From Acidimicrobiaceae bacterium (GTDB taxonomy: Bacteria; Actinomycetota; Acidimicrobiia; Acidimicrobiales; Bog-793), in assembly GCA_003136185.1 (NCBI GenBank), contig PLDN01000026.1, positions 1 through 34,589 on the forward strand: a stretch of DNA of 34,589 bases. The letters run 5' to 3'. Numbering within the stretch: position 1 is the stretch's first letter; each line of letters starts with the position of its first letter. The position numbers and the translations under genes are program-made. Shown here piece after piece: positions 13,427 to 17,919 of this stretch. Below the pieces are notes generated by a model. The model made no database searches. It had not been told where the DNA came from and saw only the letters and a program-made list of their open reading frames with translations.

Positions 13427-14752
13427 ATGGGCAACAACTCCGATAGCCAGAGTTCCGGAGCAAGAGGTGTCCTTGGCGTGCCCACACTCGCGATCTCGTG
13501 CGCCGTTGTGATGGCACTCATGATCGGTGGTGCCATCATCGCCAGCCACAGCTCAGCCAGTGGGACGCCGAGCACGACCGTAACCGCCACCTCGCAGCGG
13601 GGCTCGACAAAGCCGCACGATTCCAAGCACCGCGATTCTCGCCCGCCTGCACCCCTCAGAGTCGCTTCTGTCGTTCCCTTTCCGGGCGCCTCGTCGGTCG
13701 GATGGCGCTCGGACGTGACCGTTCGCTACAACGAGCCGATCACCGCTGCCTCGCTGATGCCGATGATCCGGCCGGCCGTGGCGGGGAGCTGGGACCGCGT
13801 CGGACCCGAGACCGTCGTGTTCCGCCCGACCACGCAATGGGTGCCTTTCGTGCAGGAGACGGTCATCGTCCCAAAGGACTCCCGCAGCACGGACGGCACC
13901 ACGCTCGGTCAGTCGTCCATCTCGACCTTCACAGTCGCAGGCGCCTCCGCCCTCCGCCTGCAGGAGCTCCTGGCAGAGCTCGGGTACCTGCCGGTCGCGT
14001 TCACGCCCAAGGGCGGGGCTGTGCCGGCGCCGGTGACGGGGGTACGCACGAGACCGACGCCCCCGTTCACGCACCCATCCTCCGCCCCGGCGAGCACCGC
14101 CACGACTGCCGTCGCTGCTCCGGGCCCGGGAACCACGAGAGACATCGAGCCATCGGTGCCTGGCGACATCCCCCGCGAAGCGTTGGCCGGAAGGTTCGCC
14201 TGGCGATTCACGAACATCCCCACTTCGCTCGCCGACGAGTGGACCGCCGGCAGTTCGAACGAGGTCACGACCGGTGCGGTGATGGCATTCGAGTCCGCCA
14301 ACGGTCTTCCTGACGATGGAGTCGCCGGACCCGCCGTTTGGCAGGCGCTGCTGCAAGCGGCCGCCTCCCGCAAGATCACCGCTGCCCCCTACGACTACGT
14401 CTACGTCTCCGAGGGCTCGCCGGAGTACGTCACTATCTGGCGCGACGGGGTCAACGTCTTCACGACGCTCGCCAACACCGGGATCCCGCAGGCCCCGACG
14501 GTCGCCGGCACCTGGCCCGTCTACGTCCGCTACACCGTCACCACTATGAGCGGGACCAACCCGGATGGCTCGACCTACAGCGACCCGGGCATCCCCTGGG
14601 TGAGCTACTTCCACGGCGGAGACGCGCTGCACGGTTATCTCCGCTCTCAGTACGGCTTCCCGCAGAGCCTCGGCTGTGTCGAGATGCCGTACAGCTCCGC
14701 AGACACGGTCTTCCCCTACACGCCGATCGGCACGCTCGTCACGGTCGAGTAG
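13427..14752 (+). CDS. L,D-transpeptidase with Ig-like and peptidoglycan-binding-like regions
   Basis: The 441-residue protein is anchored by one N-terminal membrane segment (about 18-40) and acts outside the membrane on peptidoglycan, making 3-3 cross-links or attaching proteins. After a Ser/Thr linker comes an Ig-like domain (about 78-170; Big_5-like pattern). A peptidoglycan-binding-like half (RLQELLAELGYLPV, 177-190) is separated by a Pro/Thr-rich linker from its second half (AVMAFESANGLPDDGVAGPAVWQAL, cut here at 284-308). The YkuD catalytic domain spans about 323-440, with HGGDALHG (396-403) and catalytic Cys417 in SLGCVEM. The usual SHGC-x-R motif has Leu for His and Glu for Arg. AGGTAGGG just upstream serves as a weak ribosome site for ATG 13427. 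Confidence 0.92.
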   Translation: MGNNSDSQSSGARGVLGVPTLAISCAVVMALMIGGAIIASHSSASGTPSTTVTATSQRGSTKPHDSKHRDSRPPAPLRVASVVPFPGASSVGWRSDVTVRYNEPITAASLMPMIRPAVAGSWDRVGPETVVFRPTTQWVPFVQETVIVPKDSRSTDGTTLGQSSISTFTVAGASALRLQELLAELGYLPVAFTPKGGAVPAPVTGVRTRPTPPFTHPSSAPASTATTAVAAPGPGTTRDIEPSVPGDIPREALAGRFAWRFTNIPTSLADEWTAGSSNEVTTGAVMAFESANGLPDDGVAGPAVWQALLQAAASRKITAAPYDYVYVSEGSPEYVTIWRDGVNVFTTLANTGIPQAPTVAGTWPVYVRYTVTTMSGTNPDGSTYSDPGIPWVSYFHGGDALHGYLRSQYGFPQSLGCVEMPYSSADTVFPYTPIGTLVTVE

Positions 14753-14782: not shown

Positions 14783-15766
14783 TCACCAGCCGGATGCCGT
14801 TAGCCGCCAGCTGCCGTTCCAGGTCGTGTGGTCCGATCCCGCTGGCCCGAGAACAGCGAGGCTGTCCCCGTTGCGCAACGCGTTCGGCGGACAGCTCATC
14901 GGCTCGACTGCGACCGCCCGCCGTCGGTCCCATCCGCCTAGGGTGTCGGCGGTGAAGCACATCACGTAGGGGAACTCTATGCCGGCTGAGAGGACGACCA
15001 GCCGGCCGTCACCCCGCTCGAGGCTCACCGACCACGCGGTGCCGTCGGCCGCTCGGCTCGACTCGAACCCGAAGAAACAATCATCCAACTGCGTCCCACC
15101 GAGTGACCTCCCACGCGAGAAGTCGTACTCGCTCCCAGCGACATCGGTAGCTCCCGTAGGCAGTCCGCGCTCGTCGGCGAGGATGCGCCGCTCGGCTGCG
15201 AACGAAAGTCGGCATGTGTCGACGCCTCTCTCGCCGGCGTACAGATAAGGATGGAAGCCGATCCCGAAGGGCGCCTCGCTGTCGCCGTTGTTGGTCACCG
15301 TCGTCGTTACCCTCAACTCGCGCGCTGATGTCAGCGCGTAGGTGACCTCAAGCGTGAGCCGCCATGGGTATCCCGGCTGCGGCGGCAGCTCGACGGCCGT
15401 CGTCAATGAGCTCCCTGAATGCTCGACGACCTGCCAGTTCATCCATCGCACGAGGCCGTGTATCGCATTCGAGTGTGCCGGTTCGTCAAGGCCAGCCGCA
15501 CCAGAAACGCCTCGCCAGGTGTAAGAGCCATCTTGCAAGCGATTCGGCCAAGGAGCGAGAACCTGCCCTTTGCCACCGGAGCAGATCTGGTCCGCCGGGT
15601 ATCCGAGAAGGACTGGCTCGCCGTCGATCTCGAACGAGCGCAGGCTGCCGCCAACCTCGGTGACGACGGCGACAGCCGATCGGTTCGCGATCTCGAACTG
15701 CCGCCCGGAGGGCGCGCGAGCCGGATCGGCCGGGGCGGACTGACCGGACTCCAGATAGGCGGGCAC
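14783..15766 (-). CDS. Aldose 1-epimerase family protein
   Basis: This 327-residue protein belongs to the galactose mutarotase-like superfamily, which interconverts alpha and beta anomers of sugars such as glucose or galactose. Visible active-site elements are PWPNR (72-76, substrate-binding Arg76), His103 in NAIHGLVR, catalytic His172 in GFHPYLY, and the catalytic base Glu288 in VAVEPMSCP. The GTG at 15766 is chosen because a TACCAT box lies 8 nt upstream on the minus strand. The frame also permits GTG 15802, but that would overlap the divergent SurE gene and its promoter. It is probably monocistronic. Its physiological sugar is not predictable, and related members act on phosphorylated sugars. 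Confidence 0.9.
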   Translation of the reverse strand: MPAYLESGQSAPADPARAPSGRQFEIANRSAVAVVTEVGGSLRSFEIDGEPVLLGYPADQICSGGKGQVLAPWPNRLQDGSYTWRGVSGAAGLDEPAHSNAIHGLVRWMNWQVVEHSGSSLTTAVELPPQPGYPWRLTLEVTYALTSARELRVTTTVTNNGDSEAPFGIGFHPYLYAGERGVDTCRLSFAAERRILADERGLPTGATDVAGSEYDFSRGRSLGGTQLDDCFFGFESSRAADGTAWSVSLERGDGRLVVLSAGIEFPYVMCFTADTLGGWDRRRAVAVEPMSCPPNALRNGDSLAVLGPAGSDHTTWNGSWRLTASGW

Positions 15767-15773
15767 GTCTCGA

Positions 15774-15780
15774 TATGGTA
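15774..15780. promoter_or_regulatory. Shared -10 box for divergent epimerase and SurE genes
   Basis: TATGGT (15774-15779) on the plus strand is followed by 6 nt and the SurE GTG at 15786. The overlapping bases 15775-15780 read TACCAT on the minus strand, followed by 8 nt and the epimerase GTG at 15766. The same 7 bp thus appear to be the -10 element in both directions, with only 19 bp between the two start codons. Confidence 0.5.
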
Positions 15781-15785
15781 GTGAC

Positions 15786-16646
15786 GTGCGGGTTCTGGTC
15801 ACGAATGACGACGGCGTAGACGCGACAGGGCTTGCTGTCCTTGCCCGGGCCCTTCACGACGCTGGGCTCGAGGTACTGGTGGCAGCTCCCCTTCACGAGG
15901 CAAGCGGAGCTGGAGCGGGCGTCGGGCCCCTTCACACAATGAACGACGGCATCGAGGTCGAGGTGCTCGAGCTTCCTGGCCTCGAGGGCATCGAGACCCT
16001 CGGAGTCGAGGCGCTCCCCGCCCTCATCGTCATCGCCGGGTGCCTCGGCGCCTACGGGCCGCCCCCCGACCTGATCGTGGCTGGGATCAACCCCGGACGT
16101 AATGTTGGGCGGGCGGTCCTCCACTCCGGGACGATCGGCGCAGCCCTCACTTCGGTCCACTTCAACAAGCGCGGCCTTGCCATGAGCATTCAGTCTGGGC
16201 CCTTCTCCTCCTTCGAATCCGACGAGGGAGACCGCATCCACTTCGAGACCGCAGCGGCCATCGCGGCGGAACTTGCCCCAAGAGTGGCGGCGGCTCCGCC
16301 GAGAACCGTCGTGAGTTGCAACGTGCCCAACCTCCCGATCGATCAGCTGCTCGGTCTCAGGTGGGCCAAGCTCGCCCGCAGCGGTCTGATAAGGGCAGCC
16401 CTCGTCGATGTCACTCTCGGGTCGAAGATGTTGCTCGAGCTCGGTTTTGCAGATCCCCCGCCTGGCGACGAGAGTGACGAGACCCTGACCGCCCTCGGCT
16501 ATGCGACCCTCACCCCCCTCGCGAGCGTGGCGGAGGAGCAGCGGCCCGAGGTGCGAAGCGCCTTAGCGATCGCCCTCGACGACGTCGGCGCCGCTCTCGG
16601 TATCGACACGGACGCGAGCAAGCAGGCGGACGGGCCGGCCGCGTAA
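15786..16646 (+). CDS. surE: 5'-nucleotidase SurE
   Basis: SurE is a metal-dependent phosphatase that removes phosphate from nucleoside 5'-monophosphates and sometimes polyphosphate. The 286-residue product begins with the family signature MRVLVTNDDG, giving metal ligands Asp8 and Asp9. Ser40 (EASGAG) and Asn102 (GINPGRN, 100-106) complete the metal site, and HSGT (113-116) matches the conserved loop. The start is GTG 15786, immediately downstream of the TATGGT box, so the mRNA is probably leaderless. The length is in the normal range, with a slightly longer C-terminus. In other bacteria surE often neighbours pcm or nlpD; here it stands alone, divergent from the epimerase. Confidence 0.95.
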   Translation: MRVLVTNDDGVDATGLAVLARALHDAGLEVLVAAPLHEASGAGAGVGPLHTMNDGIEVEVLELPGLEGIETLGVEALPALIVIAGCLGAYGPPPDLIVAGINPGRNVGRAVLHSGTIGAALTSVHFNKRGLAMSIQSGPFSSFESDEGDRIHFETAAAIAAELAPRVAAAPPRTVVSCNVPNLPIDQLLGLRWAKLARSGLIRAALVDVTLGSKMLLELGFADPPPGDESDETLTALGYATLTPLASVAEEQRPEVRSALAIALDDVGAALGIDTDASKQADGPAA

Positions 16647-17280
16647 CCACCAGATCGCTCGGGGCCTAAGGGTGTGGGGCCTAAGGGTGTGGGACCAGAG
16701 GGTGGGACCCGCCCGATATGGCGCTCGCGTGACGACACCAGCTTGGGCCTGCGGTTTATCACTGAGAGTGGTCGTTTAGGACCGGGTTGAGCTCGACTAC
16801 CCCGCCTAGACTTATACTTTTCGCAAAACATCTCTTCTGCCAGCACGTTCGCGTGGCAGGCCCTGGTCAGGGAGGTGCCTTTGACCACCCTGAGTGGTAG
16901 AGTCAGTTGCCCTGCCTTAATCTGCTCGCTAAAGTAAGCAACACAAACGTCATCGACGGATGGTGTCGCAACTTCCTGGTGGGTGGGGATCCCGGGGAGT
17001 GGGCCTCAACTTGGGCCCGTGTTTGGCACGTCTGAATCGCAAGACTTGCTTGCCGAGCCTGCGCCCGCCCGTCCCGACCAGTCCACAGGACCCAAAGGAG
17101 TCGCGCCACTACCAGCACACAGGGCCATACCCGTCTGCACCTCGCACGGGCGCCAACGCGCCCGGCACGACTCGCCCTTCCGGCACCGTGCCACGAGCCG
17201 GATGCATGAAAGACGGGCCGCCCGCATCAGAGCACCCACCTGGAGCCCACCGGGTTTCCGAACTCCCAAGGAGGAGCACG
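16647..17280 (+). other. 630-bp gene-free stretch with structured Rpf leader
   Basis: No gene is evident here. It holds a 15-bp tandem repeat (16661-16690), a good TATACT -10 box (16813-16818; TTGAGC at 16787-16792 is too distant at 20 bp), and several hairpins: CTGC/GCAG plus CACG/CGTG around a TTCG loop (16837-16859), CAGGG-A-GGT pairing with ACC-A-CCCTG (16868-16892), and GGGCC/GGCCC (17001-17018). If transcription starts at that box the leader is about 450 nt, unusually long. The reading frame of the next gene is open back to 16960 but lacks signal-peptide or domain character there. I could not match a known riboswitch. Confidence 0.55.
16661..16690. repeat. Tandem 15-bp repeat, two perfect copies
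   Basis: The unit ggggcctaagggtgt is present at 16661-16675 and 16676-16690, followed by a decayed third copy (gggaccagagggtgg, from 16691). It lies just after the surE stop. Slippage during replication is the simplest origin. Confidence 0.85.
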
Positions 17281-17919
17281 ATGCGCAAGCACCCCCTGAT
17301 CGCGCTGACCGCGTTCACGGCGCTCGGAGCGAGCGCCATCGCCGGCACCAATACCGGCTCAATCAATTCAGTACTTACAAGCGCCACAAGTGCTGGCCAT
17401 CACAGCAGTAGCTCGTACGCCGCCCTTAACCCGGCAACCACGCGTGCCGAGTACCAGGCTCTCGTCCCTCATCCAAAGCTGTCACTCAGCGGAAGTCTGG
17501 ACGTCATCGTGGGAGTCCGCGATGCACATCTCGCCGACCGATTGAGAGTCGTTGCAGGACCGGGGATTACATCAGTATCTGCACCGAAGAGTGTGGTCGT
17601 CATGAAGACTGCAGCCGTGGCTCCAACGCCGCCCGCTGCGCCGGTCGTCGCGACGCCTGCGCCCGTACCCGCCGCCCCAGCCGGTGGCGCCTGGTACGAG
17701 CTCCGGAGTTGTGAGTCTGGCGGCAACTACGCCGACGACACCGGAAACGGTTACTACGGCGCGTACCAGTTCGCTTTGTCGACCTGGTACGGCCTCGGCT
17801 ACTCGGGACTTCCGAGTGAGGCGTCGCCGGCTGTACAGGACCAAGCCGCAGCAGAGCTGCAGGCTCGTTCCGGCTGGGGCCAGTGGCCTCAGTGTGCGGC
17901 TGAACTCGGCTTGTACTGA
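17281..17919 (+). CDS. Secreted Rpf-like transglycosylase
   Basis: The 212-residue product is a secreted resuscitation-promoting-factor-type protein, a lysozyme-like muralytic domain that cleaves peptidoglycan glycan strands and can stimulate regrowth of dormant actinobacteria. Residues 1-22 form a signal peptide. A poorly conserved middle and an Ala/Pro/Val-rich linker (about 112-135) precede the Rpf domain (137-212): WYELRSCESGGNY with catalytic Glu145, TGNGYYGAYQF, QDQAA and SGWGQWPQC. Cys144 and Cys205 match the conserved disulfide. ATG 17281 has an AAGGAGGAG ribosome site. There are no LysM or G5 domains, so it is a short Rpf form. Expression may be controlled through the long leader. 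Confidence 0.94.
   Translation: MRKHPLIALTAFTALGASAIAGTNTGSINSVLTSATSAGHHSSSSYAALNPATTRAEYQALVPHPKLSLSGSLDVIVGVRDAHLADRLRVVAGPGITSVSAPKSVVVMKTAAVAPTPPAAPVVATPAPVPAAPAGGAWYELRSCESGGNYADDTGNGYYGAYQFALSTWYGLGYSGLPSEASPAVQDQAAAELQARSGWGQWPQCAAELGLY

Follow-up and report, generated by a model that had tools for sequence, protein, structure and literature searches.

A compact gap between divergent aldose 1-epimerase and surE genes of an Acidimicrobiaceae bacterium as a candidate two-way promoter with one symmetric -10 box

The window analysed here, a stretch of 34,589 nucleotides (contig PLDN01000026.1), derives from a 3.8-Mb draft genome in 193 contigs which is 90% complete and most closely related to genomes of uncultured actinobacteria. 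Along the window, glnD is followed by ykuD on the plus strand, an aldose 1-epimerase gene on the minus strand and surE and an rpf-like gene, both on the plus strand. The aldose 1-epimerase gene (14783-15766; PF01263, E=9.8e-41) starts with GTG at 15766-15764, a start choice derived from relatives and the gene caller, and the gene for a 5'/3'-nucleotidase of the SurE family (15786-16646; PF01975, E=1.8e-37) starts in the opposite direction with GTG at 15786-15788, its product beginning with MRVLVTNDDGVD upon translation from 15786. The flanking genes for an L,D-transpeptidase (YkuD; 13427-14752, plus strand) and, downstream, for an Rpf-like product with a transglycosylase domain (16960-17919, plus strand), both recognized by domain search and synteny, are conserved neighbours, with ykuD serving as a marker for gene loss at the same locus.

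Only 19 bp (15767-15785) separate the two start codons, as had been stated in the initial annotation and as can be read directly from the letters of 15764-15788, CAC GTCTCGA TATGGTA GTGAC GTG. The heptamer TATGGTA (15774-15780) in this gap has the symmetric form TAnnnTA, which reads TAnnnT on both strands, the feature by which a -10 box of a bidirectional promoter is recognized; conservation of such a box between divergent genes, a supporting rather than strictly defining feature, is equally observed (see below). On the plus strand the putative surE -10 box TATGGT (15774-15779) ends 6 nt from the start codon, while on the minus strand the putative epimerase -10 box TACCAT (15775-15780) ends 8 nt from the start codon. 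These readings and their leaderless distances, proposed by the initial annotation, agree with the genome-wide peak of TAnnnT ahead of start codons. A second TAnnnT on either strand and a purine-rich Shine-Dalgarno sequence were searched for within the 19-bp gap and not found, such that both genes show the combination of a -10 box at 6-8 nt and a missing Shine-Dalgarno sequence that characterizes leaderless genes. From the position of the box, transcription of surE is predicted to start at the first base of its GTG (15786, plus strand), 7 nt past the last T of TATGGT, and transcription of the epimerase gene at 15768 on the minus strand, 2 nt ahead of its GTG, which places the two predicted start sites 18 bp apart; bidirectional promoters are expected to have one start site per strand, separated by about 18 (10-23) bp. 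By position, the -35 regions lie inside the opposite gene, as had been noted, with no conserved -35 consensus on either side, as TTGACA-like hexamers were not clearly enriched at any spacer in either direction among 40 aligned boxes. The hexamer GTGACC, located 16 bp upstream when read toward the epimerase gene, was considered as a -35 element and discarded, since its sequence is imposed by the conserved LVTN codons of SurE.

How common such arrangements are was assessed in a genome sample of 602 kb, consisting of the window and about 568 kb drawn from 40 contigs, in which 523 genes were called. Ahead of 1653 candidate starts TAnnnT occurs 45 times at 6 nt, 21 times at 7 nt and 18 times at 8 nt, compared to about 3-4 times at unrelated distances from the same starts, which indicates that leaderless starts are normal in the source genome. 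The chance that a random 19-bp gap contains a symmetric TAnnnTA with both spacers of 6-8 nt is about 0.0025-0.003 (approximately 0.3%). Ten of 81 sampled divergent pairs of the source genome look doubly leaderless, nine of them with separate boxes in gaps of 29-159 bp; a box is shared only between the epimerase gene and surE. Another divergent pair of this genome (L221:19403-19433, contig C11 of G000) with a 29-bp gap carries a TAnnnT 6 nt from the start on each side, with TACGCT and TAGCCT as separate boxes. Searching the whole 3.8-Mb genome with the pattern CAY-N5-7-TAnnnTA-N5-7-RTG gave four matches, fewer than the backward control, and two clear genes flank only one of them, the epimerase-surE gap. 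Shared boxes as a genome-wide habit were thus dismissed, and the shared box is a feature of this single locus. Equally, the seventh A was not convincingly more frequent ahead of divergent genes in general (7/47) than ahead of tandem genes (3/38).

Relatives were compared using 52 distinct epimerase-surE pairs in divergent orientation, almost all of which belong to the same order. TA(T/A/G)SGTA is found between the genes in 40 of these pairs, with the form TATSGTA, that is TATGGTA or TATCGTA, in 36 of the 52. In the 40 aligned boxes a G two bases ahead of the box is kept in 38 and conservation runs 3-5 bases to the left, while other clear conservation within 45 bp on either side, including the -35 positions, is not observed. 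The window has CGA at 15771-15773 (plus strand), which fits the CGN motif that extends mycobacterial -10 boxes (PMC3898074), and the conserved left CG/CGG extension corresponds to the CGN extended -10 of Mycobacterium tuberculosis, in the surE direction (PMC3898074).

The position of the box stays while the start codons shift relative to it. In most of the window's family and in family f45, the epimerase start is located 6-10 nt from the box while a leader of roughly 25-100 nt, frequently with a Shine-Dalgarno sequence, precedes surE; in family f23 and some others, surE starts 7-10 nt from the box and the epimerase gene has a leader. Both starts near the box, with the 19-bp gap, are seen only in the source genome and in G008, a member of another genus of the same family, in which 17 of the 19 gap bases are identical although only 47% of the surE third codon positions are. 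Since most relatives combine a leaderless start on one side with a leader on the other, often with a Shine-Dalgarno sequence, double leaderlessness is a condition confined locally to two genera. Some pairs fall outside these layouts, because the epimerase start codon is not assignable or such a box is missing, and the box in G042 is asymmetric, which was counted against a shared promoter. The initial annotation had named two features of relatives, another spacing and a missing shared box, that together would speak against its proposal; the spacing indeed differs, but the box is present. In the SurE branching of the closest relatives, where G008 is represented by a fragment, the inner order is not firm. 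In family f23 (L186, L188, L195, L196 and L199), a second element, the symmetric TAACTTA, recurs about 14 bp ahead of the surE box and may be the epimerase gene's own -10 box in those genomes. In L092, which contains surE of G034, the alignment crosses one internal TGA, which reflects either gene disruption or an error in sequencing.

The fate of the seventh base was compared between genomes with and without the partner gene, as TAnnnT suffices for one direction and the seventh base A matters only for the opposite direction. With the box at leaderless distance on the epimerase side, 22 of 24 paired and 1 of 11 unpaired genes have A as the seventh base (Fisher p 3.7e-6), and on the surE side 14 of 18 paired and 3 of 31 unpaired genes do (p 2.2e-6); shared ancestry is ignored in both tests and, given the kinship among the genomes, independent events are fewer than the counts. 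Within the window's family, all 14 paired genomes with a leaderless-distance epimerase box, from nine genera, have the seventh A. In seven genomes with no detectable surE, which belong to four genera, the box at 6 nt from the epimerase start is TACCAT or TACGAT, and the next base is G or C. Genome searches did not find surE in these surE-less genomes of the family, and the neighbours ykuD, glnD or rpf are retained in six of six that were checked. The synteny ykuD-epimerase-surE-rpf shows that several of the unpaired genes lost their partner at this very locus. The epimerase gene is kept with surE not detectable in G009, G012, G015, G016, G024, G027 and G033, at the same locus in most checked cases. 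In the reverse situation, four close relatives with no epimerase gene at the locus have TATCGTG, TATCGTT, TAACGTA and TAACCTA before surE, so that the symmetry is gone in two of the four; TAACGTA and TAACCTA retain the A despite the loss of the epimerase gene and were counted against a shared promoter. Also counted against it is G010 (L146:1085-1120), where surE keeps TATCGTA with no adjoining epimerase gene and a small divergent open frame resembling a membrane protein is located instead. Overall, the paired and unpaired pattern read from these sequences fits what selection for bidirectional use predicts.

Alternative readings of the gap need to be weighed against this pattern. As one base turns any TAnnnT into TAnnnTA, the box might serve one direction only, with the match on the other strand as a by-product of near-symmetry; the CG/CGG extension favouring the surE direction and the better conserved spacing to the epimerase start in the window's family can each be cited for such a one-sided box. 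On the other hand, the seventh A is kept in paired but not in unpaired genes on both sides, the gap offers no alternative -10 box and G008 keeps the box exactly, which makes this explanation unlikely. That the conserved ACCGGTATSGTA is primarily the operator of a regulator and not mainly a promoter box would account for conservation reaching 3-5 bases to the left, but the left extension agrees with the mycobacterial CGN extended -10, the distances to the start codons follow the genome-wide leaderless -10 rule and symmetry is lost along with the partner gene, leaving an operator distinctly improbable. Least probable of all, and rejected here, is an epimerase start at the upstream GTG 15802 inside surE, by which the genes would overlap and the box would not be the epimerase promoter: although the frame is open as far as this second in-frame GTG, relatives have an ATG at the equivalent of 15766, 6-10 nt from the box, the coding-score gene caller chooses 15766 and similarity beyond this position reflects the surE coding sequence on the opposite strand.

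The initial annotation went further and considered the two genes mutually exclusive by design, that is, the shared box would exist to bar joint expression of surE and the epimerase gene. Its premise that polymerase must bind in either one direction or the other holds geometrically, as the two -10 hexamers overlap and cannot be bound simultaneously, in line with the principle described for bidirectional promoters (PMC12825309). However, basal competition was negligible at all five Escherichia coli bidirectional promoters tested (PMC12825309), where interference required strong activation of one direction. The divergent leaderless genes prpD/Rv1129c of M. tuberculosis, with start sites 120 bp apart, are induced together (PMC3898074). 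Moreover, start codons and leaders shift freely among relatives, neither a regulator site nor a strong -35 element that would allow competing activity is conserved, and nine of the ten doubly leaderless-looking pairs of the source genome use separate boxes. With interference in E. coli restricted to strong activation, and with neither room for an operator nor a good -35 element at this locus, 'mutually exclusive by design' exceeds the evidence, and we regard such a switch as improbable.

We consider it probable, judging from the sequence comparisons, that the gap constitutes one bidirectional housekeeping promoter with TATGGTA read in both directions, with both mRNAs leaderless or nearly so and with little competition between the directions. 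A single symmetric -10 box serving both divergent genes is well supported by its conservation and by the loss of symmetry along with a partner, and leaderless starts on both sides, with 0 nt ahead of surE and about 2 nt ahead of the epimerase gene, are likely. RNA polymerase with the main sigma factor would bind TATGGTA in either orientation, because each strand of TAnnnTA has a T at -12, an A at -11 and a T at -7, and initiation seven bases past the -7T would yield the start sites 15786 (plus) and 15768 (minus). The surE mRNA would then begin with the first base of its GTG and the epimerase mRNA 2 nt ahead of its GTG, so that both would be translated in a leaderless or nearly leaderless fashion. 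Such a promoter would be widespread in the order, with the start codons having moved relative to it; as geometry sets a floor of 17 bp between two leaderless start codons, the 19-bp gap is close to the minimum. Expression would most likely be low and constitutive with at most weak competition, as low unregulated transcription in both directions is expected where the non-coding sequence is too short to accommodate an operator and a good -35 element is lacking on either side. On balance, though with less assurance, we favour the broader reading that an order-wide promoter couples two housekeeping genes, that its symmetric base is selected only while both genes are present and that two genera have arrived at a minimal 19-bp divergon with both mRNAs leaderless.

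The epimerase-surE gap would appear to be an extremely compact case of a known two-way promoter type. In the bidirectional promoters mapped by Warman, Grainger and colleagues, one -10 box is read on both strands with -7T and -11A reciprocally paired, and 18 bp, the distance also predicted here, is the most common distance between start sites (PMC12825309, PMC10268837). In contrast to those promoters, the start sites discussed here are predicted from the boxes, both mRNAs are predicted to be leaderless, such that the promoter would fill nearly the whole gap, and conservation of the symmetric base together with both partners extends across an order. The leaderless promoters of M. tuberculosis resemble the locus in their TANNNT -10 box, the CGN extension, the lack of a conserved -35 element and a start codon at or near +1 (PMC3898074). 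Unlike here, the start sites of prpD/Rv1129c are located at 1254630 and 1254510, a distance at which the box is not shared (PMC3898074). The divergent M. tuberculosis genes lysG/lysE equally have overlapping -10/-35 regions and, in part, a leaderless transcript, but their 108-bp intergenic region contains a regulator-bound inverted repeat (PMC5648196), whereas the 19 bp here have no visible operator.

The locus represents an evolutionary natural experiment, in which genomes carry both genes, one gene or the box at varied distances from the starts. Should start-site mapping bear out the predictions, the locus would show that promoter symmetry can be selected rather than being incidental, and the gap would approach the lower size limit for a divergent pair, which is 17 bp for two leaderless genes with one shared -10 box.
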